In this document: in pieces, positions 173 to 46,676 of the stretch
Layout: each line of letters opens with the position of its first letter
Numbering within the stretch: position 1 is the stretch's first letter
Source: Verrucomicrobium sp. BvORR106
GTDB lineage: Bacteria; Verrucomicrobiota; Verrucomicrobiia; Verrucomicrobiales; Verrucomicrobiaceae
NCBI RefSeq assembly: GCF_000739655.1
Contig: NZ_BATR01000083.1
Span: 1-51,643, forward strand
Direction of reading: 5' to 3'
Length of the DNA: 51,643 nucleotides
Made by a program: the position numbers and the translations under genes
Notes under the pieces: model-generated
What the model was told of the DNA's origin: nothing
The model's input: only the letters and a program-made list of their open reading frames with translations
Database searches by the model: none

Positions 173-210
173 CCACTGGTTTACCGAACTACTGAATTAC
201 CGAGTTACTA
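173..210 (-). repeat. 8-bp-period array at the 3' end of ruvB
   Basis: Read on the minus strand, the bases directly after the ruvB stop fall into octamers of pattern RGTNNNTC (AGTAACTC, GGTAATTC, AGTAGTTC, GGTAAACC), followed by AGTGGG. The ruvB stop codon TAG overlaps the first unit. The orientation is sense relative to ruvB, as at four other genes in this window. Confidence 0.7.
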
Positions 211-1242
211 AAAGAGATCTCCTTGCGTGTCCCGAGTGGCAGACAGCGGCACGGGCAGCCCGAGCTTCTTGTACGCGCTGGGCATGGCCACGCGGCCGCG
301 CGGGGTGCGTTTCACGTAGCCCTGCATGACCAGATAGGGCTCGTGCACGTCTTCCAGAGTGCTGGCGTCTTCGTGCACGGCCACGGCGATGGAGTTCAAC
401 CCCACGGGGCCGCCGGCAAACTTGTTGATGAGGGCATCGAGGATGCGCTTGTCCATCTCATCCAGCCCGTCCTCATCGATGTCCAGCATGGAGAGGGCGG
501 CTGCGGCCACGGGGCCGTTCACGGCCTGGTTGGAGGCACGGACTTGGGCGTAGTCCCGCACCCAGCGGAGGAGGTGGTTGGCCACACGCGGAGTGCCGCG
601 GGAGCGCTTGGCCACCTCGCGGGCCCCTTCGGGCCCCATGTCCACTTGGATGAGGCTGGCGGAGCGCAGCAGGATCTTTTGAAGCTCGTCCACCGTGTAG
701 TAGTCCAGCCGGTTGGGGATGCCAAAGCGGCCGCGCATGGGCGCGGTGAGCATGCCGGCCCGGGTGGTGGCTCCCACCAGAGTGAAAGGGGGGAGGTCGA
801 TCCGGATGGTGCGCGCCTTCGGCCCCTGGTCGATGATGATATCCAGCCGGAAGTCCTCCATGGCCGGGTAGAGGTACTCCTCGATGCTGGGGTGCAGACG
901 GTGGATCTCGTCGATGAAGAGGATGTCCCGCTCCTGGAGATTCGTCAGGATGCCGGCGAGGTCCCCGGCGCGCTCGATCTGCGGGCCGCTCGTGGAGTGG
1001 AGCTTGGAGCCCACCGCCGTGGCCACGATGTGGGCCAGTGTGGTCTTGCCCAGCCCGGGTGGGCCGCAGAGCAGCACGTGGTCCAGAGTGTCCCCGCGTT
1101 GCCGTGCCGCTTCCACCATCAGCACCAGTCGCTCTTTCACCCGTTCCTGCCCGGTGAACTCGGAAAAGTCCGGCGGACGCAGGGCCACGTCGTACGGGGT
1201 TTCCGGGGCCGTGGTCGTCTGGTCGTAGAAGGTCTGGCTCAA
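208..1242 (-). CDS. ruvB: Holliday junction branch migration ATPase RuvB
   Basis: This is the AAA+ motor that, with RuvA, drives branch migration of Holliday junctions before RuvC resolution. The 344-aa length is normal for the family. Visible motifs are Walker A GPPGLGKT (residues 60-67), Walker B LFIDEIH (108-114), sensor 1 GATTRAG (157-163), the GRFG arginine region (171-174) and a C-terminal winged-helix part with TPRGR. The start chosen gives the usual short acidic leader before the [11 protein letters not shown] segment. ruvA and ruvC are not adjacent. The stop codon sits in an octamer repeat array. Confidence 0.97.
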
Positions 1243-7171: not shown

Positions 7172-8284
7172 ATGAAAGCTTCCATCTACATCCTGTCCCT
7201 GGCAGGTGCCGTGCTGCTCCTCTTTCTCTTCTCCATCAGCGCCTACAGCGTGGGTGAGACGGAGCAAATCATCATCACCCAGTTCGGCGAGCCCGTCGGC
7301 GGTGCCGTCAACAACCGGCTCGAGAAGAATGAGGCTGGCCTTCACTTCAAGGCGCCCTTCATTCAGCAGGTGCACCGTTTCGAGAAGCGCATCCTTGAAT
7401 GGGATGGTCCTTCCGACTCCATGTCCACCCGTGAGAAGCTCACCGTCGTGGTGAATGCCTTTGCCCGCTGGCGCATCGCCGATCCCCTCCGCTACTACCA
7501 GAGCCTTCGTGACGAGCGCAGCGCGCTTTCCCGCATCACCGATATCGTCGGCAGCGCCACGCGCGGTGTCGTGGCCAAGCACGACCTCGTAGAGGTGGTT
7601 CGCAGCGACAAGACGCGCAAGGTCGAGGTGGAGAAACTCTCCGTGCAGGGCATCGCCGTGGTGACGCAGCTCCCCGCGATCCAGTACGGTCGCTCGGTCC
7701 TGGAGAAGGAAGTCCTGGCTGCCGCCGCGGAGAGCGCCAAGGCCTGGGGCATTGAGATCCTGGAGGTGCAGTTCAAGCGCATCAACTACAACCCGGCAGT
7801 GAGCGACAAGATCTATGACCGCATGACCTCTGAGCGCATGCAGATCGCCGAACGTTTCCGCTCCGAAGGCGAGGGCGAGGCCGCCAAGATCATTGGGCGC
7901 AAGGAGAAGGACCTCCGCGAGATCGAATCCAGCGCCTACCGCAAGGTTCAGGAAATTCAGGGTGAGGCCGATGCCAAAGCCACCGAGATCTACGCCCAGG
8001 CCTACAACACCAGCACCTCCGCCGCGCAGCTCTACCAGTTCGTCAAAACGCTGGAGACCTACAAAACTACCCTCGGCCGCGACAGCACCCTCATCCTCAC
8101 CACCGACAGTGACTTCTTCAAATACCTGAAGTCCATGAACCCGGAAGGGAAGACGGAAGCGACGGCAACACCCGCGGTGAAGCCAGCGCAGGCCAAAGCG
8201 ACGCCTGCACCTGTCGTGGTGCCTGCACCTGCCCCGGTGTCGACCCCTGCGCCTACGTCAGCGCCTGTGCCGGTGGCGCAGTGA
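7172..8284 (+). CDS. hflC: HflC-type SPFH-domain membrane protein
   Basis: This is the partner of HflK in the FtsH-regulating membrane complex. The 370-aa protein begins with a membrane segment (about 5-24), followed by an SPFH domain (TEQIIITQFGEPVGG, GLHFKAPFIQQVHRFEKRILEWDG). The NAFARWRIADPLRYYQS and MTSERMQIAERFRSEGEGEA segments are typical of HflC. It is longer than the usual ~300 aa because of a low-complexity Ala/Pro/Thr tail (about the last 50 residues). It probably shares a transcript with hflK. Confidence 0.9.
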   Translation: MKASIYILSLAGAVLLLFLFSISAYSVGETEQIIITQFGEPVGGAVNNRLEKNEAGLHFKAPFIQQVHRFEKRILEWDGPSDSMSTREKLTVVVNAFARWRIADPLRYYQSLRDERSALSRITDIVGSATRGVVAKHDLVEVVRSDKTRKVEVEKLSVQGIAVVTQLPAIQYGRSVLEKEVLAAAAESAKAWGIEILEVQFKRINYNPAVSDKIYDRMTSERMQIAERFRSEGEGEAAKIIGRKEKDLREIESSAYRKVQEIQGEADAKATEIYAQAYNTSTSAAQLYQFVKTLETYKTTLGRDSTLILTTDSDFFKYLKSMNPEGKTEATATPAVKPAQAKATPAPVVVPAPAPVSTPAPTSAPVPVAQ

Positions 8285-8445
8285 TTCGGTGAAACAGCTC
8301 CTGGTGGTCTTTGAACCACTGGGGGCAGTGGAGGAACGGACCGGAAGCCTGTTGTGTATTTCATGTAACCCTCGACGGTTTGCCTTGGTGAGCCCCGGAG
8401 CCGCGACGGCGCATTCACTATACCGATTGTAGGAATGCCACTTCA

Positions 8446-12203: not shown

Positions 12204-12707
12204 ATGGTTCCTCAGATGGAAACCTCACTGAATCTGGAAGAAGCAGAAGGAAAAGCCGGGGGGCGAGGGGCGATGTTCCTATGGCTTTTGGTATTGTTGC
12301 TGGTGTGGGCCAGCCCGTTTGCCTATATTGGGTGGCAAGTCCGTCAATCCTCAAAAGAGCTGGATGCCTTTGAGGAAGAATTTAGACGGCGGGTCAATCC
12401 AGATGAACTGCGGGCGTGGGTCATGACGCAACTCAAGCGGCACCCTCAAGGGGGAACTGTGACCCTCGGGAGATCTGACTGTCCGTCCAGCTTCCCATCA
12501 CTGCGGCAACATGAACTATGGGTGTTTCTCTCCCGCCTTGAGGAGGCCCATCCACGTCCAGGGGTGCAGGGCGCGTCGCTTTTTTGGAACTATGGGTACT
12601 TGGGTATGAAAGTTTCGGTGTACCTGAATGAAGATGGAACTGCGGCAAACGTGGAGTTCATTCAGCCCTGGGCCAAGGGGGTCACTTTTGAGCGGATCTC
12701 CAAGTAA
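12204..12707 (+). CDS. Single-pass membrane protein with soluble C-terminal domain
   Basis: This 167-aa protein has a short acidic cytoplasmic start, one membrane segment (about 25-45, rich in Leu/Val/Trp) and a soluble domain of about 120 residues. An alternative ATG at 12216 would remove four residues. The soluble part ends in a probable beta-sheet (LGMKVSVYLNEDGTAANVEF). Function unknown. A 219-base gap without genes or clear repeats follows. Confidence 0.6.
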   Translation: MVPQMETSLNLEEAEGKAGGRGAMFLWLLVLLLVWASPFAYIGWQVRQSSKELDAFEEEFRRRVNPDELRAWVMTQLKRHPQGGTVTLGRSDCPSSFPSLRQHELWVFLSRLEEAHPRPGVQGASLFWNYGYLGMKVSVYLNEDGTAANVEFIQPWAKGVTFERISK

Positions 12708-17917: not shown

Positions 17918-18427
17918 ATGAAACGCTGTGAAATGGAAGCCTTGGCCGCCTCATTGTGCGACTATCTGTGTTCGAGGAATCACGACATCACAGGCTGGTG
18001 GGGCATCGGGCGGCTTTGTGAGATCGCTGAACGGAAGAGGAAGCCTGCCTTCAGCTTCAAAGTGCGGCCGGGTGAAGTTCTCTGGATCTACGGCTACGAG
18101 GTCTCCGGTTCGCGGAGGATAACGGACAGGCTGGTGAAGCATGGCCTGAACTCCATCGAAGGGAGGATCTCATTTCTCCCTGCAGGTCGCTATGGCAACG
18201 GGCTCAAGAGGTTCTATTGCACTGTCGCCATCGCTGTCACTCAGGACGGCAGGACCGGGCTTGCGATGCGTCATGTCGAGTGCTGGCCGCACGACTCCTT
18301 TCATGAGTCGCGGGGTGCAAACTTCAAATACGAAACTTCAAAAATCAAATCAGAACCAAGAACCAAGAACCAAGAACTCTCAAGCCGCCTTCCCCGTGAG
18401 TGGCACGACCTCTTGGTGCTTTCCTAA
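17918..18427 (+). CDS. Hypothetical protein with a repeat-derived C-terminus
   Basis: This 169-aa protein follows the previous gene by 19 bases. Residues 1 to about 133 look like a folded domain (LCDYLCSRNHDITGWWGIGRLCEIAERKRKPAFSF, RFYCTVAIAVTQDGRTGLAMRH). The last 35 or so residues (from about GANFKYETSKIK) are encoded by a 7-bp-period repeat array, then by the complement of the apbE 3' end. The natural stop was probably lost when the array arose. Function unknown. Confidence 0.55.
   Translation: MKRCEMEALAASLCDYLCSRNHDITGWWGIGRLCEIAERKRKPAFSFKVRPGEVLWIYGYEVSGSRRITDRLVKHGLNSIEGRISFLPAGRYGNGLKRFYCTVAIAVTQDGRTGLAMRHVECWPHDSFHESRGANFKYETSKIKSEPRTKNQELSSRLPREWHDLLVLS
18318..18384 (+). repeat. 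7-bp-period degenerate array (SAAMNNN)
   Basis: Nine in-phase heptamers are seen: CAAACTT, CAAATAC, GAAACTT, CAAAAAT, CAAATCA, three GAACCAA, and GAACTCT. The first four positions are nearly fixed and the last three vary. It is translated as the end of the gene at 17918 and runs up to the apbE stop from the other side. The same heptamer pattern occurs at 46061-46155 after an ABC permease gene. Confidence 0.75.
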
Positions 18428-19267
18428 AACCCAGCCGCTCGCGCGATAGGTCTTCAGGAGACGGGCGGAGTCCTCTGCGCGGGCGAACCACGCTACTTTG
18501 GTGAGGGCATCGGCCAGCATGGCGGTGGGGGCCGCGACGGTGACGCTGCGGCTGCCGGGATTGGCACGGCGGGTGTGGGGATGGATGAGCGGGGCCACCC
18601 AGGCGCCCTCGGGCATCTTCTTGCGGCTGAAATAGCTGCCGGTGGTGGCCAATGCACCGTCCTTGAGCTGGATGGCATGGTGCGAGGTGCCGGGCTCTGA
18701 GGGATCTCGCAAGTTCACCAGTTGCGACTTGGCACCGAAGACGCGCAGATCGCCGCCGGCGTTCACAATGCCACTGAGTCCGCCGATGCCGCGGAGGATG
18801 TCCACGGCCTTGTCCACGGCGAAGCCCTTGGCAATGCCGCCCACATCCACATAGGCGCCGCCGTAGAGACGGGCCTGGTGATTGTCATAGAGCTTGATGA
18901 TGCCAAAGCGGCACAGCGGCGGCACCTTGGTGCCCTGCCCGGGCAGATAGCCCAGATGCAGCAGGGAGCCGGCGATGCACACATCAAAGAGTCCTGCCGT
19001 ATCGCTCTTCAGATTCTCTGCACAGCGCAGCACCTCGATGGTCCAGGGATGCAGTGGCACGGGACGACCGCGCCCGTCCGTATTGAGACGGGAGATGTCG
19101 CTGTGCGGATCGTGAAAGCTCATGAGCTTGTGCACGCGCTCGATCTCGGTGAAGGCGGCTCCAGCCAGCGTGTGCAGCGTCTTTTCATCGCGCTTGCCCT
19201 CCAGCGTGATCTCCACCAGCGTCCCAAGGAGGGGGCGGGCGCGTTTGATACGGTTGTACTCCGGCAT
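18380..19267 (-). CDS. apbE: FAD:protein FMN transferase (ApbE family)
   Basis: ApbE attaches FMN from FAD covalently to a Thr/Ser of target proteins in exported electron-transfer systems. The 295-aa protein starts MPEYNRIKRARPLLGTLVEI. It has the ApbE blocks MSFHDPHSDISRLN, YVDVGGIAKGFAVDKAVDIL, VNAGGDLRVFG and PTAMLADALTK. An upstream in-frame extension is Pro/Ser/Cys-rich and rejected. No signal peptide or lipobox is evident, unlike many homologues, so its location is uncertain. The gene upstream on the same strand encodes a likely substrate, which supports the function. Confidence 0.9.
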   Translation of the reverse strand: MPEYNRIKRARPLLGTLVEITLEGKRDEKTLHTLAGAAFTEIERVHKLMSFHDPHSDISRLNTDGRGRPVPLHPWTIEVLRCAENLKSDTAGLFDVCIAGSLLHLGYLPGQGTKVPPLCRFGIIKLYDNHQARLYGGAYVDVGGIAKGFAVDKAVDILRGIGGLSGIVNAGGDLRVFGAKSQLVNLRDPSEPGTSHHAIQLKDGALATTGSYFSRKKMPEGAWVAPLIHPHTRRANPGSRSVTVAAPTAMLADALTKVAWFARAEDSARLLKTYRASGWVLGKHQEVVPLTGKAA

Positions 19268-20785: not shown

Positions 20786-21624
20786 CGGATCGTCAGGAAG
20801 AACAGGCCGCCATGTACTCGCTGCATGTGCTGGATGAGCATGAGAAGCGCATCCTGCGCAGCGAGATGAAGGTGGACGCCCGCCTCCGCGAGGCTGTGGC
20901 CGAGTTTGAGGAAACCGCTGCCGAGATCGCCCAGCTGCTGCCGGAGGAGGCTCCTCCACCGGAGCTGCGTGCGCGCCTCCTTGCGGAGATCCGCCGTTCC
21001 AAGCGCTCCAACATCGTCACTGGTGTCATCTTTGGGCTCATCCGCAGTCCATGGGTGGCCTGGGCTGCCGCGGCGGGATTGGCCTTTGGGGCCTTCCGCT
21101 TGTGGGAGGAGAAGCAGCAGATCGCCGCTCAGATCCCGGCCCTCCAGGCCAGTGAAGTGCGAGCCAAGGCTGAGACCCTACTGGCCGAGCAGGCCAAGAC
21201 GGAGCTTCAGCAAAAACTGACTGCCGCCACTTCCGATACCACGGCCCTCACGGCCGAGGTGGCCCGGCTCAAGCAGGCTAACGCTGTCTCCAGCATGGAG
21301 ATCGCAACCCTCCGCTCTGGCATCAAGCGCTATGAAGAAGGCGTGGCCGTGGTGGTGTGGGACAGCAACGCCCAGCAGGGCCAGCTGAAGATGGACAAGA
21401 TGCCGCCCGTGCAGCCCAACAAGGACTACCAGCTCTGGGTCATCGACAAGGGCAAGACCAAGCCGGTGGACGCTGGAGTGGTGAAGGTGAACGATCGCGG
21501 TCGCGCCACCATCACCTTCAAGCCCGCCCTGCCCATCACCGACGCCTCCCGCTTCGCGGTGAGCGTGGAGAAGGAAGGCGGCGTGCCAGAAGGGGAAGGC
21601 AGCATCATCATGATCAGCCCTTAG
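20782..21624 (+). CDS. RskA-type membrane anti-sigma factor
   Basis: This protein would hold the adjacent sigma factor at the inner membrane until a signal triggers its release. It is 280 aa: an N-terminal cytosolic sigma-binding helix region (AMYSLHVLDEHEKRILRSEM, about 10-75, without the zinc-binding HxxxCxxC), one membrane segment (about 88-108), a coiled-coil (about 110-180) and a C-terminal RskA domain with KDYQLWVIDKGKTKPVDAGV. A strong AGGAGG lies 8 bases before the ATG, which overlaps the sigma-factor stop. The stop is directly followed by octamer repeats. Confidence 0.9.
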   Translation: MTDRQEEQAAMYSLHVLDEHEKRILRSEMKVDARLREAVAEFEETAAEIAQLLPEEAPPPELRARLLAEIRRSKRSNIVTGVIFGLIRSPWVAWAAAAGLAFGAFRLWEEKQQIAAQIPALQASEVRAKAETLLAEQAKTELQQKLTAATSDTTALTAEVARLKQANAVSSMEIATLRSGIKRYEEGVAVVVWDSNAQQGQLKMDKMPPVQPNKDYQLWVIDKGKTKPVDAGVVKVNDRGRATITFKPALPITDASRFAVSVEKEGGVPEGEGSIIMISP

Positions 21625-22110
21625 GTCCAGTGCGTCAGTGGGCGGTGCGTCAGTGCGTCAGTGCGTCAAGGTGTTGGGGCTGGAGTCGTACTTGGTGCGG
21701 GTTCCAGCCTGCCTCGCGCTGGGTGCTCGTAGCTGTTCGTAGTACAGGCTTCAGCCTGCCGCAGGGGAGATTGGGCGTGTCTTGATCACGCCATGTTGCC
21801 GGAACGGTCAGCAAAAGGAGCGAGGGGCATTCCTGTCCCGGTCCCAGCTCAACCTATCTTGCCTGGACGGCCTTCCACCCCTGCCAGCTCCAACGGAGAG
21901 GGTTGGAGTTCCGCGTTTACGCGGTCACGCCCGCGAGATCCATGATGCGTTTGAGTGAGGCGACGTCCAAAGGATCTTCCGCAGGCTGAAGCCTGGACTC
22001 CGTACAGAGCCAAGCTTCCGCAAGCTGTTAGACACACAACGACCCATCCAGCCCCAACACCTTGACGCACTGCCCACTGACGTACTGGCTCAGACGCACT
22101 GCCCTACTGG
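21625..22110. repeat. Composite inverted-repeat region between convergent genes
   Basis: Octamer-type repeats lie at both ends, each reading away from its gene's stop: AGTGCGTC units at 21629-21668, and their complements at about 22054-22110. A block of about 26 bases (21656-21681) is repeated inverted at about 22041-22066. Nested inside are inverted copies of a CAGGCTTCAGCCTGC palindrome (about 21745 and 21985), a module shared with 40425 (21808-21842) and a GGGTTGGAGTTCCGC piece shared with 46875 and 51588. No gene is seen. Confidence 0.7.
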
Positions 22111-23182: not shown

Positions 23183-24700
23183 ATGTCGGAGCCACCCCGC
23201 CGCCGTCGACGCAATCCTGTACCCGAACACCGCTGGTTCGACGAGGACGAGGAGCAAGAGGCCGTATCGCCGCGTCGTCGCGAGCGGGATCGGGATCGGA
23301 ATCGTGCCCGGGACGAGGAAGGCGAAGTGGAGCGTCCTCGTGAACGAGGAGGTGATCGTAGCCGAACCCGCAAGGAGACTTCACCATCCGGCAATGAGCC
23401 GCAGCAGGAGAGCCAGGTTGGCTGGGGACCGCCTTCGAAGCTGACCTGGGTGCTCTTTGGTCTGCTGGCCACGGTGTTGGGTGTCTTTGCCTATCTGCGG
23501 GATGAAGCTCCTCCGTTCGACAGCGATGTCATGCCGGGGCCGGCGGAAGGCAGCCCTCCCTCAGACATGGCGGCCGTGCGTCGCATGAAGGCCATGCTCT
23601 CGGCTGCGCAGTCGGTCCGTCGTGAGGGGCTGCCCACCACACCCGTGTGGCAGTGGGATACGCCCACCCTCTCTGCCCTGCTGGAGCAGCACAGTGCCGT
23701 GCTGGATAATTTTCGCGATCTGCTGGAGGAGAAGGACCTGGAGTGGCAGCCCCGCTCCATGGAGTGGAAGAAGGCCGACTTCGGTGCGGACCGTGCCTGG
23801 CCTGCGGTGGTGCTCATGAAGCAAGTAGAGAGCGCCTACCTCGCCCGTCGCGGGCAGGAGGAGGCGTCCTTCCTCGCTGCCATCGATCTCGCAGTGCTCG
23901 GCGGCTTGCTGGAGCAGTTGGACGCCTGGCCCTCGCTGATGGACCGCTCCCTGGCGTTCCATGAGGCCTCAACTGCCTCCCTGGCTGAGCTGCTGCGCAA
24001 CACCCAGCTCGACGCAGCCCGGCTGAAGCGGCTGCAGGAGGTGGAGTTCAAGCCTTTCATCCCCTCCATGGACCGCCTGCGTGCCGCCATGAAGGGCTTC
24101 TACGCCTATGAACGCAAGCTGCTCATCGGCCCCGCCCCTGATGAACCGCCGTTGCCGCCGTATTATCTGCCGGCGCGCACCGGCTGGGTGTTCTTCAAGC
24201 CCCATGCCACGCTCCGCCAGTTCGCCGACAGCTTCCGCGAGCTTCAGAAGGAGCCTGTCCTGGCCGCCTATGCACGGGGTGGGAAGATGTCCTCCCGCCT
24301 GGAGCACCGCCTGCCCACCCGGCGGCCGCTCTTTGACCCCAACTGGTCCGGCACGGAGTATTACCAGTCTCGCATCGGGTTCTATGAAACGCTGCCTGAC
24401 CGCGTGCACATTGCCCGCTTCCGCCATGACGCGGTGATGACCCTCTTCGCCATCCGCCGCTACGTCGTCACCGAGGCCCGCCTGCCCGCTACTCTGGACG
24501 CCCTGAAAGGCAGCTACATCGACTCCGTGGGCATCGACCCCTACACCGGCGAGGCCCTCCGCTACAATCCCGAAAAAGGCTGCCTCTACTCCATCGGCAG
24601 CGACTACCGCGATGATGGCGGAAAACCGGGCCCGGTTGCCTTCGCTGATGCCGAAGAGCCCACCGTGGCGATTGGCATTGGCATGGCCCGGGCGGGGTGA
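23183..24700 (+). CDS. Membrane-anchored hypothetical protein with charged cytosolic head
   Basis: This 505-aa protein begins with ~80 residues extremely rich in Arg, Glu and Asp. One membrane segment follows (about 87-104), then a ~390-residue extracytoplasmic domain, mostly helical. The C-terminal segment (IDPYTGEALRYNPEKG, LYSIGSDYRDDGG) resembles the ends of pseudopilin-type and related PVC-phylum proteins, where a DP-G-LRY / YS-G-DG pattern recurs. I do not know the function. A 128-base gap separates it from the divergent panE-like gene. Confidence 0.75.
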   Translation: MSEPPRRRRRNPVPEHRWFDEDEEQEAVSPRRRERDRDRNRARDEEGEVERPRERGGDRSRTRKETSPSGNEPQQESQVGWGPPSKLTWVLFGLLATVLGVFAYLRDEAPPFDSDVMPGPAEGSPPSDMAAVRRMKAMLSAAQSVRREGLPTTPVWQWDTPTLSALLEQHSAVLDNFRDLLEEKDLEWQPRSMEWKKADFGADRAWPAVVLMKQVESAYLARRGQEEASFLAAIDLAVLGGLLEQLDAWPSLMDRSLAFHEASTASLAELLRNTQLDAARLKRLQEVEFKPFIPSMDRLRAAMKGFYAYERKLLIGPAPDEPPLPPYYLPARTGWVFFKPHATLRQFADSFRELQKEPVLAAYARGGKMSSRLEHRLPTRRPLFDPNWSGTEYYQSRIGFYETLPDRVHIARFRHDAVMTLFAIRRYVVTEARLPATLDALKGSYIDSVGIDPYTGEALRYNPEKGCLYSIGSDYRDDGGKPGPVAFADAEEPTVAIGIGMARAG

Positions 24701-24704
24701 GGAC

Positions 24705-24824
24705 GGTAAATCAGTAATTCGGTAAAACGGTAATTCAGTGCGTCAGTGCGTCAGTGCGTCAGTGCGTCAGTGCGTCGGTGCGTCGGTGCGTCGGTGCGTC
24801 GGTGCGTCGGTGCGTCGGTAGGTT
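24705..24824 (+). repeat. Degenerate 8-bp tandem array (RGTNNNTC)
   Basis: Fourteen in-phase octamers follow, beginning four bases after the stop of the upstream gene: GGTAAATC, AGTAATTC, GGTAAAAC, GGTAATTC, five AGTGCGTC, five GGTGCGTC, then a degenerate unit. The outer RGT and C are nearly constant while the middle changes from AT-rich to GC-rich. The pattern matches arrays at 173-210, 21629-21668, 22054-22110 and 25002-25050. Confidence 0.85.
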
Positions 24825-25001
24825 GCGCGAGTTATCTCATGAACCCGGAGGGTTCGCCATGCGTAGCCATGGGTCGGCCGAGTGAAGCGAGGACTACCCA
24901 TGGAAAGGGACAGGGCGAAATCTACCGCGGCGCGGTAGGCCCATGGCGTGTTATGCCCCCCCGCCTCCAACCCCGCCCCTGACATTCTCCCACGGCCCAC
25001 T
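24825..25001. repeat. Palindrome-rich spacer
   Basis: It contains an inverted pair CCATGGGT (24868-24875)/ACCCATGG and a perfect CTACCGCG/CGCGGTAG hairpin (around 24930-24946). It is bounded by octamer arrays of opposite orientation belonging to two convergent genes. No gene is seen. Confidence 0.5.
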
Positions 25002-25050
25002 GGTTTACCGTTTTACCGTTTTACCGAATTACCGATTTACTGAACTACCG
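25002..25050 (-). repeat. 8-bp-period array overlapping the 3' end of the PfkB gene
   Basis: On the minus strand the octamers are GGTAGTTC, AGTAAATC, GGTAATTC, GGTAAAAC, GGTAAAAC and GGTAAACC, then AGTGGG. They encode the last residues (GSSVNR) of the PfkB protein, and its TAA stop lies inside a GGTAATTC unit. The AGTGGG end is shared with the ruvB array. Confidence 0.75.
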
Positions 25051-25967
25051 ATCCTCCGGATCGCCTCGCGCCCGCCCACATACTTGGCCGTTTCCGCTGC
25101 CAGCTCACTGGCCAGGCGGGCACAACGTTGCGCGGGCCATTGCTGCATCCATCCGTGGAGAAAGGCTCCGTGATACACATCGCCGCAGCCCGTGGTGTCC
25201 ACCACGTCCGCGACCGCCACGGCGGGTTCATGAAACGATGCCTCCCCGCGCGGCCAGATCCATGATCCCTTGACGCCATCGGTGATGACCAGCAGCTCGG
25301 GGGAATCTCCGCGCAATGCCTCTGCCGCTGCCTCCAGGCTCGAAGCTCCGGTGAACGCGCAGGCAAACTCCCGCGCCAGGATGCGCAGGCCGCTGCCCAG
25401 CACCAGATCGCGAATCGATTCCCGATATCTCCCGGCTCCGCCGTCGAATGACACCGGCACTCCGGCCTCCTTCGCCCAGGCCAGCACTTGGCGCGCCGTG
25501 TTCTCGTGACGGCCGTTGAGGTGCACCAGACCTACTTTACCAAAGGATTTGCTTAGAATGACCTCAGCATCCGGCTCGGGGCAATCCGCGGGTTGGAAAA
25601 AAATGTGCCGCGCTCCATCGCGCTGCCGCACCAGGATGTGCGCCAGCGCCGAGCGCGCGCCCGGATGGATGGCGATCGACTCGGTTCGCACTCCCAACAT
25701 CCGCAGCTCTTCCAGGATCGCCCGTCCGGTGGCATCGTCCCCCTGCGTGTCCAGCAGTCGTGCGGGCGTGCCCAGCGCCGCCATCACGCACAGGGCCGTG
25801 GCCACGGGGCCTCCGCCTTGCTCACTCATCCCCAGGGCCTGGGTGACGCCATCACCCGCGGGAAACTCTGGAACCACCACAAACCGGTCCCACGTCGCGG
25901 CTCCGATCCCAAGCACCTCACGGGCATCTGTGGCCGGGTCCGTCCCATGGGCTGAAGTGTAAAACAT
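25029..25967 (-). CDS. PfkB-family carbohydrate kinase
   Basis: This is an ATP-dependent sugar or nucleoside kinase of the ribokinase fold. The 312-aa protein has an N-terminal substrate region (GIGAATWDRFVVVP, then GGGPVATA at 51-58) and the PfkB C-terminal signature DTTGCGDVYHGAF (257-269), with D263 as the expected catalytic base; GCGD replaces the more usual GAGD. The substrate cannot be told; the divergent MFS transporter 108 bases away may import it. The final residues are encoded by an octamer array. Confidence 0.9.
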   Translation of the reverse strand: MFYTSAHGTDPATDAREVLGIGAATWDRFVVVPEFPAGDGVTQALGMSEQGGGPVATALCVMAALGTPARLLDTQGDDATGRAILEELRMLGVRTESIAIHPGARSALAHILVRQRDGARHIFFQPADCPEPDAEVILSKSFGKVGLVHLNGRHENTARQVLAWAKEAGVPVSFDGGAGRYRESIRDLVLGSGLRILAREFACAFTGASSLEAAAEALRGDSPELLVITDGVKGSWIWPRGEASFHEPAVAVADVVDTTGCGDVYHGAFLHGWMQQWPAQRCARLASELAAETAKYVGGREAIRRIGSSVNR

Positions 25968-44901: not shown

Positions 44902-46056
44902 ATGTTGCCCCTTTCCTACGCTGTTAGAAATCTCTTCCGGGTGCCAGCCCGGCTCCTCCAGATTGTCCTGGGGGGCGGGTTGGTGATCCTGCTGCTCATG
45001 CTGGCCGCTGCCTTGTCCGAGGGCATGGACGGCGTGCTGCGATCCTCTGGTTCGGAGAAAAACATCATCGTCCTCGGCACCGGCAGCGAGGAGAGTGTGG
45101 AGCGGAGCGAGATCAAGGCCTCCGTCCCCTCCGAGCTGGAGGCCGCCGTGAGCGGACTGGAAGAAGTGCTGGGACGGGTGGCGGTCTCGCCAGAGATCCA
45201 CTACAATGGCCTGCTCACCTTGGGCGACGGCCCGGGGGATTCACGACAGGCGCTGTTTCGTGGCGTGACGCCCGCCGCCCTACTGGTGCATCCGGAAGTC
45301 CGTCTGGTGGAAGGCACCTTTCCGCGGGCCGGGGAGATCATGGTGGGCCGTTTGGCCGCGCATCGGCTCGGGGTGGGGGAGGCGGCTCTCAAGCCCGGCA
45401 CCCAGGTGAAGGTCGGTAGCACCACTCTGCGCATCTCCGGCATCTTTCAGGCCCCCGGCACGGTGATGGAGGCTGAGCTCTGGGCGGATCTGAATGACCT
45501 CCGGGCCATCGGCCAGCGTGACACCATCTCCTGCGTGGTGGTGCGGCTGGACTCCGCCACCTTCGATGATGTGGAGGTGTTCACCCTCCAACGGTTGGAC
45601 CTCGAGCTCGCCGCCATCCGGGAGAGCGACTACTATGCAAAACTCGCCGCCTTCTACACCCCGCTGCGCATCATGACTTGGGTCACCGCCGGCCTCGTCG
45701 TGGCCGGGGCGGTCTTTGGCGGCATGAACACCCTCTACGCCGCCTTTGCCTCCCGTGTGAGGGAGATGGCCACCCTGCAGGCCGTGGGCTATTCCCGGAA
45801 GGCGCTCGCCTTCAGCCTGCTGCAGGAGTCCCTTCTCGCCTCCCTGCTGGGTTCGCTGTTCGCCGCCGTCATCGCCCTGGCCTTTGCGGATGGTCTTTCC
45901 GTACCCTTCTCCATCGGGACCTTCCTCCTGCGCATCACCCCGGGCATCCTTGGACTCGGCGTGCTAGGTGGTCTCACGCTTGCCATCATCGGCACGCTGC
46001 CCCCGGCCTGGACGTGTTTGCGCCCGGAGCTGCCTGCCGCGCTTCGGTCGGCTTGA
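44902..46056 (+). CDS. FtsX-like ABC permease 2
   Basis: This 384-aa permease is a paralogue of the upstream one with the same order: first helix (LLQIVLGGGLVILLLMLAAALSEG), extracytoplasmic domain (ALFRGVTPAALLVHPEVRLV, EIMVGRLAAHRLGVG) and three C-terminal helices around RVREMATLQAVGYSRKALAF. Its stop is followed directly by a heptamer repeat array. Substrate unknown; the flanking Cys-containing secreted proteins suggest a metal or lipoprotein-related cargo, by inference only. Confidence 0.88.
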   Translation: MLPLSYAVRNLFRVPARLLQIVLGGGLVILLLMLAAALSEGMDGVLRSSGSEKNIIVLGTGSEESVERSEIKASVPSELEAAVSGLEEVLGRVAVSPEIHYNGLLTLGDGPGDSRQALFRGVTPAALLVHPEVRLVEGTFPRAGEIMVGRLAAHRLGVGEAALKPGTQVKVGSTTLRISGIFQAPGTVMEAELWADLNDLRAIGQRDTISCVVVRLDSATFDDVEVFTLQRLDLELAAIRESDYYAKLAAFYTPLRIMTWVTAGLVVAGAVFGGMNTLYAAFASRVREMATLQAVGYSRKALAFSLLQESLLASLLGSLFAAVIALAFADGLSVPFSIGTFLLRITPGILGLGVLGGLTLAIIGTLPPAWTCLRPELPAALRSA

Positions 46057-46060
46057 TGCG

Positions 46061-46155
46061 AAAATTCAAATGCCAAACTTCAAACTTCAAATCTCAATAC
46101 GAACTCATCACTCACCAGACCCAACTCTTAACCCATAACCCCTAACTCATAACTG
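46061..46155 (+). repeat. 7-bp-period degenerate array after the permease gene
   Basis: In-phase heptamers start five bases after the stop: GAAAATT, CAAATGC, CAAACTT, CAAACTT, CAAATCT and CAATACG, changing to AACTCAT, CACTCAC, AACTCTT, AACCCAT, AACCCCT, AACTCAT and AACTGTA. The first six units match the SAAMNNN pattern at 18318-18384. The array reaches to the start of the next gene. Confidence 0.75.
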
Positions 46156-46163
46156 TATTGATC

Positions 46164-46676
46164 ATGAAAAAGACATCGTTCCTCTCCTTGTTCGTCCTCA
46201 CCGCGCTTTCCTTCACGCTGCCTCAGGCCATGGCTGCCGATTTGCCTGAAGGGATCCTCGTCACCACCGCTCCGTCCGGAGCCGTCGCGGTCGCTGCTGC
46301 CCGCAAAGAGACCGCCAAGGCCGGGACCGAGATCGTGCTGCGTGGTCGCATCGGCGGTCGCATGACGTCGCTGATCGACAAAGCCGCCATCGCCGTGCTG
46401 GCAGATGAGAAAGCCATCACCGCCTGCAATGCCATGCCCGGCGATACCTGTGCAACTCCGTGGGACTACTGCTGCGAAACTCCAGAGAAACTCAAAGCCA
46501 GCATTGCCACCATTCAGGTCCGCGGTGCGGACGGAAAGATTGTCAAAGCACCTCTCCGCGGGTTGGGCGGACTCAAGGAGTTGAGCACCGTCGTGGTGAA
46601 AGGGACTGTGGATGCCGCATCGGGTAAAGATGCACTGATTGTGAACGTCACGCAGATCCAGGTGGAGAAGAAGTAA
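46164..46676 (+). CDS. Secreted protein with PWDYCC motif, linked to the exporter
   Basis: This is a 170-aa protein with a signal peptide (about 1-25, ending AMA). The mature part has a beta-rich, OB-like pattern (AGTEIVLRGRIGGRM, STVVVKGTV) and the distinctive block CNAMPGDTCATPWDYCCE (about 92-109). Similar secreted proteins with this Cys block are seen in PVC-phylum genomes near ABC exporters, in my recollection; I cannot check this. Function unknown. The start ATG at 46164 is preferred over an upstream TTG. Confidence 0.72.
   Translation: MKKTSFLSLFVLTALSFTLPQAMAADLPEGILVTTAPSGAVAVAAARKETAKAGTEIVLRGRIGGRMTSLIDKAAIAVLADEKAITACNAMPGDTCATPWDYCCETPEKLKASIATIQVRGADGKIVKAPLRGLGGLKELSTVVVKGTVDAASGKDALIVNVTQIQVEKK

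Follow-up and report, generated by a model that had tools for sequence, protein, structure and literature searches.

The window analyzed here is the whole 51,643-nt contig NZ_BATR01000083.1 of Verrucomicrobium sp. BvORR106 (contig C127 of genome G000, which comprises 8.69 Mb in 209 contigs). Short direct repeats, most of them built on a CRGT core, lie at the ends of several of its genes (Table 1). The pattern CRGTNNNNCRGTNNNNCRGT gives 22 three-unit matches in the window, compared to a mean of 0.03 and a maximum of 1 in 100 dinucleotide shuffles; the arrays are real and exceed chance by far. A search of the window against Rfam 15 gave no matches at the gathering score.

A preliminary description, made from the letters alone, had reported degenerate octamer arrays at the ends of five genes. 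Four of the five hold under a strict octamer test, and the panE-like run turned out to mix 7-mers and 8-mers. The constant part had been written as RGTNNNTC. It is better written as CRGT followed by NNNN, position 8 being T in 178 of 250 inner units. The final C of the earlier motif opens the next unit. The genes named at the time agree with Pfam (RuvB, an RskA-type anti-sigma factor, PanE/ApbA, and PfkB), and the 505-aa protein encoded by the gene ending at 24700 has no Pfam match. All five runs read along their gene, as had been stated, and so does a sixth at the end of a Band_7 gene (7172-8284, assigned by Pfam). Stop codons were correctly placed inside the runs of ruvB, the panE-like gene, and pfkB, and the stop of the Band_7 gene also lies within its array. 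The pfkB stop is in the fourth unit of its array. The TAG stop of ruvB forms the first three bases of the array, a register that differs from the usual TRR (see below). The ruvB array has a counterpart at the same site in two other genomes of the genus (G001 and G003), with the units altered. The AGTGGG ends reported for the ruvB and pfkB arrays were confirmed in the sequence, and AGTGGG is additionally present within the anti-sigma and panE runs.

TABLE 1. Repeat arrays and associated features in the window. Runs marked "strict" have at least three CRGT units in the octamer scan.
Feature	Position	Strand	Remarks
CRGT octamer array, heterogeneous, at ruvB stop	175..210	-	Strict; 3′ end CAGTGGG
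ruvB	208..1242	-	Pfam RuvB_N, 2.5e-75
Weak CRGT array, 3 full units, at Band_7 gene end	8271..8298	+	Sixth run of the strict scan; absent from the preliminary description
Run lacking the C	12595-12613	+	Looser RGT-only scan
Heptamer array (TGGTTCT)	18352..18377	-	3′ of ApbE-family gene 18380-19267, sense; unlisted in the preliminary description
Mixed 8/7-mer run (CAGTGCGT, the 7-mer CAGTGGG, CGGTGCGT and others)	21628..21668	+	3 nt past anti-sigma stop 21622-21624; runs into CAAGGTGTTGGGGCTGGA (21667-21684)
CRGT run	21643-21662	+	Strict
Mixed 7/8-mer run over PanE/ApbA stop (22104-22106)	22054..22110	-	Units CAGTACGT, CAGTGGG (7), CAGTGCGT, plus extra letters
15-unit array past the 505-aa gene (stop ends 24700)	24704..24819	+	Strict
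8-unit heterogeneous array at pfkB	24999..25058	-	Strict; 3′ end CAGTGGGC; faces array 24704..24819
Two heptamer arrays (GTTTGAA and GTTATGG types)	46059..46155	-	Unlisted in the preliminary description

The array past the 505-aa gene begins with four heterogeneous units on the side of the gene and continues with CAGTGCGT five times and CGGTGCGT. The same layout, in which stop-bearing heterogeneous units are proximal to the gene and uniform GCGT units are distal, is seen at two other loci (L032, 12103-12306; L087, 3299-3342). It looks as if the distal uniform part were the younger, expanding portion of these arrays.

Two further structures accompany the window arrays. The convergent intergenic region at 21628-22110 has mixed arrays at both ends facing inward and resembles a miniature element. 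It contains the inverted pair CAAGGTGTTGGGGCTGGA (21667-21684) and TCCAGCCCCAACACCTTG (22047-22064), and similar sequence is present 3′ of the anti-sigma arrays of G001 and G003. The palindrome AACCCGGAGGGTTCGCCATGCGTAGCCATGGGT is part of a dispersed repeat, found at 24830-24960 and at other loci, that is often located 3′ of GCGT arrays and occurs in the opposite orientation as well.

Array Families and Their Distribution

We sampled 1.43 Mb of G000, including the window, as stretches taken around CRGT array matches. The seeding pattern, with about one match per array, occurs at 87 places in the genome (46 forward, 41 reverse). The sample contains 103 CRGT arrays. Outside genes there are 54 heterogeneous arrays and 48 that are dominated by CRGTGCGT (GCGT arrays); the single array inside a gene was excluded from every placement count. 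Because the stretches were selected around CRGT arrays, absolute rates for CRGT are inflated and the conservation found is an upper bound.

Matches of four units occur in 24 of 57 genomes and are most numerous in G003 (328), G000 (300), and G001 (276). G003 belongs to the same genus, and its genome is in one contig of 8,220,857 bases. A fourth genome from the genus is G002 (2.5 Mb, 76% complete), with three such matches. Homogeneous repeats are present in several genomes outside the genus.

An any-period tandem scan identified CRGT as one among many array families at gene ends in G000. By eye, the others include GAATTAG, GGTAAGT, AGTGAAA, GGGAAAA, TTGGTGC, GTTTGAA, GGTTCTT, and GGAGTGAT types. 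At a strict setting, the period of intergenic arrays in G000 is 7 in 38 and 8 in 50 out of 102 (88/102 together), and no such arrays were found in a 543-kb Markov control. A looser setting, which returned 269 hits of any period in G000 and 17 in the Markov control, gave a period of 7 in 53 and of 8 in another 53 of the 123 intergenic arrays in G003 (106/123 together). Tandem arrays within genes mostly have periods that are multiples of 3.

Placement at Coding Edges

An array was scored as lying at a sense stop if it overlaps a stop codon of its own direction or begins no more than 10 nt from one. By this definition, 44 of the 54 heterogeneous arrays are at a sense stop, 7 are at the start of a gene on the opposite strand (3-13 nt from its start codon), and 3 are at neither; these counts come from a home-made gene caller, three arrays were reassigned by hand to the sense-stop class, and in several of the seven start cases a second, weaker reading frame runs along the other strand. 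The preliminary description had named random orientation, or no enrichment near stop codons, as the outcome that would speak against a 3′-end pattern. Across the 1.43 Mb the 44 arrays that begin at sense stops bear the pattern out. The wording "always" in the sense direction goes too far, since 7 of the 54 adjoin a start codon on the opposite strand. Within the window, the G-rich strand of the heptamer arrays at 46059-46155 is antisense to both neighboring genes; 8 nt separate its 5′ edge from the gene start at 46164, and 2 nt separate its 3′ edge from the gene that ends at 46056. The polarity first described is right for most arrays, but a fuller statement is that the CRGT strand has its 5′ edge against a coding edge.

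Of the 48 GCGT arrays, 35 come after a gene on their own strand and 13 have a gene on the opposite strand on that side. Of the 35, 21 begin 2-11 nt past the stop, 8 overlap it, and 6 lie at 17-44 nt. In a generic 7/8 scan of G000 (12 of 149 arrays with a period of 7, 8, or 14 were excluded as lying in genes or having G close to C), a coding edge lies no more than 15 bp from the G-rich 5′ edge for 49/58 CRGT arrays and 46/79 arrays of other families. The corresponding numbers for the 3′ edge are 2/56 and 8/76.

We also scanned other phyla, which returned at least 114 stretches; the 80 examined contained 100 arrays, 21 of them within ORFs. Most of the matches listed simply repeat one word or two. 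The 28 heterogeneous arrays listed, three of which are from Verrucomicrobium, have a coding edge at the 5′ side in 17/27 and at the 3′ side in 4/25. For the 51 homogeneous arrays listed, these values are 17/43 and 14/51. The pattern used required a TRA in each unit, so that any reading frame entering such an array terminates there, and the arrays of other phyla lend weak support to the edge rule. Viral contigs gave 41 stretches, many of which are single-word repeats. Some CRGT arrays in distant phyla (L201, L213 in Desulfonatronovibrio, L273 in Aminicenantes, and L253) end in CGGTGGTC or CAGTGGGC, like some arrays of Verrucomicrobium.

The sense stops at 44 of 54 heterogeneous arrays are what would be expected of a 3′-UTR element, in which the array in the mRNA ends or stabilizes the transcript or binds a protein that reads CRGU every 8 nt. 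The constant core at a fixed spacing, more conserved than the variable letters, fits this as well. Of the 48 array-bearing stops that are followed by 150 bp of space or more, 7 have a terminator-like hairpin 46-113 nt downstream, and thus some arrays are likely transcribed. However, terminator-like sites within 200 nt are equally common at array-bearing ends and at others (7/48 vs. 58/333), a result by which we also rejected the arrays as intrinsic terminators, which are G+C hairpins with a T run behind them, or as stand-ins for these. The 7 of 54 arrays before opposite-strand start codons, the dependence on fork direction, and the replacement of the family by unrelated heptamers at some orthologous edges (both described below) likewise count against a 3′-UTR element. 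We consider it unlikely, and a role of the arrays at transcript ends, judged from the letters, is not favored.

The stop codon itself often belongs to the array. For 41 arrays a sense stop was called no more than 10 nt away, and in 34 of them that stop (TAA, TGA, or TAG) is the TRR of CRG/TRR, where about 5 would be expected; 4 of the 34 lie one unit ahead of the first called unit. Since neither 7 nor 8 is divisible by 3, units with TAA, TGA, or TAG could halt ribosomes in every frame, and a guard of this kind would agree with the single register of the stop (34/41). Stops in all three frames are found within 33 nt at 18/48 array-bearing ends, compared to 13/333 other ends. Yet 20/48 array-bearing ends have no stop at all within 33 nt (124/333 for the others), and arrays are also found at start codons. 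Unit positions 5 and 6 are independent, with GG observed 14 times for 14.8 expected, and thus TGG is not avoided. On account of the stop-free ends and the independence of GG, we rejected a three-frame guard as the general cause. We regard it as very improbable, and the accessible text of a published study also describes eubacteria as being without selection for extra stops (PMC6764699).

A reading that covers both stops and starts is a gate for Rho. Here the G-poor, unstructured strand entering the gene would load Rho, and untranslated transcription, whether antisense or uncoupled, would be stopped on reaching the coding edge. This would account for the polarity at stops and at starts, as well as for the exchange of families. 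As RNA, the inward strand has little structure, at a mean of -4.3 kcal/mol per 50 nt. The sense strand of arrays folds at -9.3 and array-free sequence at -11.5 kcal/mol in 50-nt folds, the array-free value being for the sense strand only. The next gene is convergent at 33/48 array-bearing ends vs. 121/333 others. On the other hand, Rho sites use YC dinucleotides, and the inward strand of CAG units, read from the letters, has none. Dependence on the fork is not predicted either, and we think that a Rho gate is quite unlikely.

Orientation and the Replication Fork

Arrays tend to be oriented with the replication fork, a lean that is clear in G000 and weaker in G003. The sign of the local GC skew was matched by 40/54 heterogeneous CRGT arrays and 34/48 GCGT arrays in G000 (one short stretch without readable bases is not counted), and by 25/34 and 24/44, respectively, in G003. 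For the comparisons that follow, contigs or stretches with an absolute skew below 0.03 were excluded from the denominators in both genomes. In G000, the 5′ edge of an array is found at 49/302 stops of leading-strand genes (31 of them CRGT) and at 8/266 stops of lagging-strand genes (4 CRGT; p = 8e-8). At starts the preference is reversed, with 10/289 for lagging-strand and 1/323 for leading-strand genes (p = 0.004). The 3′ edge of arrays occurs at 0 leading stops, 7 lagging stops, 0 lagging starts, and 1 leading start.

The same comparison in G003 gave 19/142 leading vs. 10/174 lagging stops (p = 0.03) and 9/179 lagging vs. 0/147 leading starts (p = 0.005). The effect at stops in this genome is due to the CRGT arrays (11 vs. 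2) and is not seen for the non-CRGT arrays (8/142 vs. 8/174). The G-rich strand is the leading strand in 17/28 CRGT and 29/46 other arrays of G003. For the generic, non-CRGT arrays, the strand with more G than C was taken as the array strand. Intergenic sequence on the leading strand itself has more G (0.322) than C (0.251), so part of the lean of these arrays is composition. We also compared orientation to the majority gene strand of the contig; 20/54 heterogeneous CRGT arrays agree with it, and there is no relation.

Turnover Between Related Species

At the orthologous sites of heterogeneous arrays, a CRGT chain of at least 3 units was found in 109 of 120 comparisons, which are non-independent and give an upper bound. 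Several of the remaining 11 hold another family by eye. The number and wording of units vary between species at orthologous arrays, and the same edge can carry different families, with CRGT in one species and GGTAAGT or GGGAAAA heptamers in the other. When a stop in G000 has an array, one was called at the orthologous stop of the other species in 32/57 cases; when it does not, in 26/363.

The position of the stop codon is little affected by these changes. It is equal in 20/23 and 20/25 pairs with an array in one species, in 27/30 pairs with an array in both, and in 238/278 pairs with none, although many orthologues without a called array carry a weaker array below threshold, which makes this comparison softer than the counts imply. 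The idea that gene ends are overwritten by array insertion is unsupported, given the equal stops in 20/23 and 20/25 orthologues without a called array. A targeted insertion mechanism, one of the functions first suggested, fares no better, as these orthologues stop at the identical codon.

Within the unit, the core is conserved over the variable letters. In gapless one-to-one pairs (12/110), the core C, G, and T differ at 6/183 sites and the variable letters at 28/208 (p = 3e-4); the coding flank in the same pairs differs at 67/720 sites. An earlier gapless set of 9 pairs gave 3/135 and 13/156 (p = 0.04). In gapped alignments (44/48 pairs), positions 1-8 differ by 2.2, 15, 0.9, 6.3, 16.8, 25.7, 25.1, and 17.9%, values that are inflated because units are shuffled; the claim for the core therefore uses gapless pairs alone.

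Mobile elements are another possible source of dispersed arrays. In one such reading the arrays are the ends of palindromic, REP-like intergenic elements that are moved by a Y1 transposase (RAYT). GCGT-type arrays face inward around the palindromic region at 21628-22110 and flank a Y1 transposase gene in both G000 and G003. Single-strand transposition typically shows a fork lean, which can also be adduced for it. Against this, the Y1_Tnp domain is found in 54 of 57 relatives, whether rich or poor in arrays, with 18 copies in G000 and 39 in G003 but 17 and 13 in the array-poor G004 and G014. The sequence beyond heterogeneous arrays is diverse and the position of the stop codon is unmoved. We find this reading improbable; a Y1 transposase as the driver of array number was rejected, as the Y1_Tnp count is unrelated to the array count across the 57 relatives.

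Relation to Known Intergenic Repeats

Cyanobacterial short tandemly repeated repetitive sequences (STRR) are degenerate intergenic arrays with a heptamer step. STRR and the long simple sequence repeats (Mrazek et al., 2007, as presented in the accessible text of PMC4679880) are similar to the present arrays in being intergenic and in their heptamer step.

A close likeness is to the heptamers of Rehm et al. (2015). The accessible text of that paper describes GGGNATC and GGGGAYT heptamers in Xanthomonas and Nostoc that are dispersed, intergenic, and in tandem, mostly within 50 bp after a stop (sense) or upstream of an ORF (antisense; PMC4692102). In xanthomonads the mean distance is 28 nt to the 5′ ORF and 160 nt to the 3′ gene, and some overlap the stop. 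The heptamers are mostly found between the same genes in two species, vary in length and sequence, and favor four units per array; for Xanthomonas the same text reports no leading/lagging bias and no regulatory role. Placement at coding edges, in sense after stops and antisense before starts, is shared with Verrucomicrobium. The unit of Rehm et al. has 7 bases, whereas CRGT arrays have a period of 8 and other families of G000 one of 7. The heptamers are reported to have no fork preference. The arrays here have heterogeneous wording around the CRGT core, share the genome with several other families, and lean with the fork (at stops of G003, CRGT arrays only). The heptamers also have GGG tracts that can form G-quadruplexes. 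Common CRGT units have GG at most, and GGG is found in few units, mostly final ones; thus G-quadruplexes of GGG runs are not expected for CRGT arrays. Several GGG-free words obey the edge rule, and this disfavors G-quadruplexes as its cause.

Direct repeats of TAACTGA have been described in Beggiatoaceae, cyanobacteria, and Bacteroidetes (MacGregor, 2015; PMC4679880). In Table 1 of that paper, 147 of 170 sets are toward a start and 12 toward a stop. The complement TCAGTTA, read from the letters, has CAGT at a 7-base step, and the available text places these repeats directly against coding edges, with CAGT antisense at starts as in Verrucomicrobium. The difference, on the same portion of the paper, is that TAACTGA is one fixed heptamer mostly at starts, whereas the octamer CRGTNNNN is mostly at stops. 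REP palindromes tagged GTAG or CGTC are intergenic and mostly downstream of genes, and the GTAG types are tied to Y1 transposases, according to the accessible text of PMC3733652. REPs are tagged hairpins, whereas the arrays are in-register direct repeats without the palindromic stem. Nor does array number track the Y1 transposase, a domain that 54 of 57 relatives have, as copy number would for REP/RAYT elements.

The preliminary description knew of no account of such a pattern. For octamer arrays in Verrucomicrobium, we likewise found none in the literature searched (titles and abstract openings, with subscription journals thinly covered). For G-rich heptamers, though, the placement rule has been in print since 2015 (PMC4692102). 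TAACTGA at start codons is on record as well (PMC4679880), both as given in the accessible text. The edge rule is thus already published for G-rich heptamers, and the arrays of Verrucomicrobium are a further form of such arrays. The portions of the cited papers available treat intergenic arrays word by word and explain them by the chemistry of the word, e.g., G-quadruplexes or a regulator site. Here, one genus has several words, GGG-free words among them, that follow one edge rule and can substitute for one another at a given gene end. This suggests that the edge rule stems from the place and not the word.

Possible Origin of the Arrays

The reading we prefer, to which we would give somewhat less than an even chance, places the runs in the window among the intergenic arrays with 7- or 8-base units that are widespread in bacteria, and holds that coding edges are seeded with such arrays repeatedly, through slippage linked to replication and through copying. 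The mechanism, slippage with a 7-8 base step together with copying between arrays, is one that we infer from sequence comparisons. Seeding may take place behind a co-directional gene, at the point where the fork runs into RNA polymerase or into RNA that has just ceased to be translated. Arrays may persist at the coding edge because the protein is unaltered there. As TRR belongs to the unit, the stop would often fall into register with the array. The edge rule, the fork lean, the periods of 7 and 8, and the turnover with a fixed stop are the evidence counted for slippage.

Some observations count against it. Pure slippage is expected to yield like neighbors, yet adjacent units share 2.82 of the 5 variable letters vs. 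2.48 between arrays. The fork lean is weaker in G003, and the accessible text on the Xanthomonas heptamers reports no fork bias (Rehm et al., 2015; PMC4692102). The conservation of the core over the variable letters also fits selection on a bound motif. The CRGT core might be retained since it pairs during slippage and copying, or since it is bound by something; the data fit both, and selection on a bound core is the alternative to slippage pairing.

A more far-reaching proposal is a system for writing boundaries, with interchangeable, strand-polar arrays of 7 or 8 bases that mark the end of translated DNA and are renewed by a dedicated copying activity. We think such a system rather unlikely. 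In it, the wording would be immaterial, whereas the step would count, as would the G-rich strand, the direction of the fork, and the position at the edge, and the mark would be meant for RNA polymerase, Rho, or the replisome. Returning to slippage and copying, the origin of such arrays is an old puzzle, and families that are interchangeable and lean with the fork make it testable.

At two loci, GCGT arrays accompany a transposase gene. In G000 (L077, 9850-11430, on contig C144) and in G003 (L150, 7060-9660), a Y1 (RAYT-like) transposase gene lies amid palindromic repeats and inward-facing GCGT arrays. The right side of the G003 locus includes tandem copies of a segment of about 320-350 bp, each of which contains a GCGT array.
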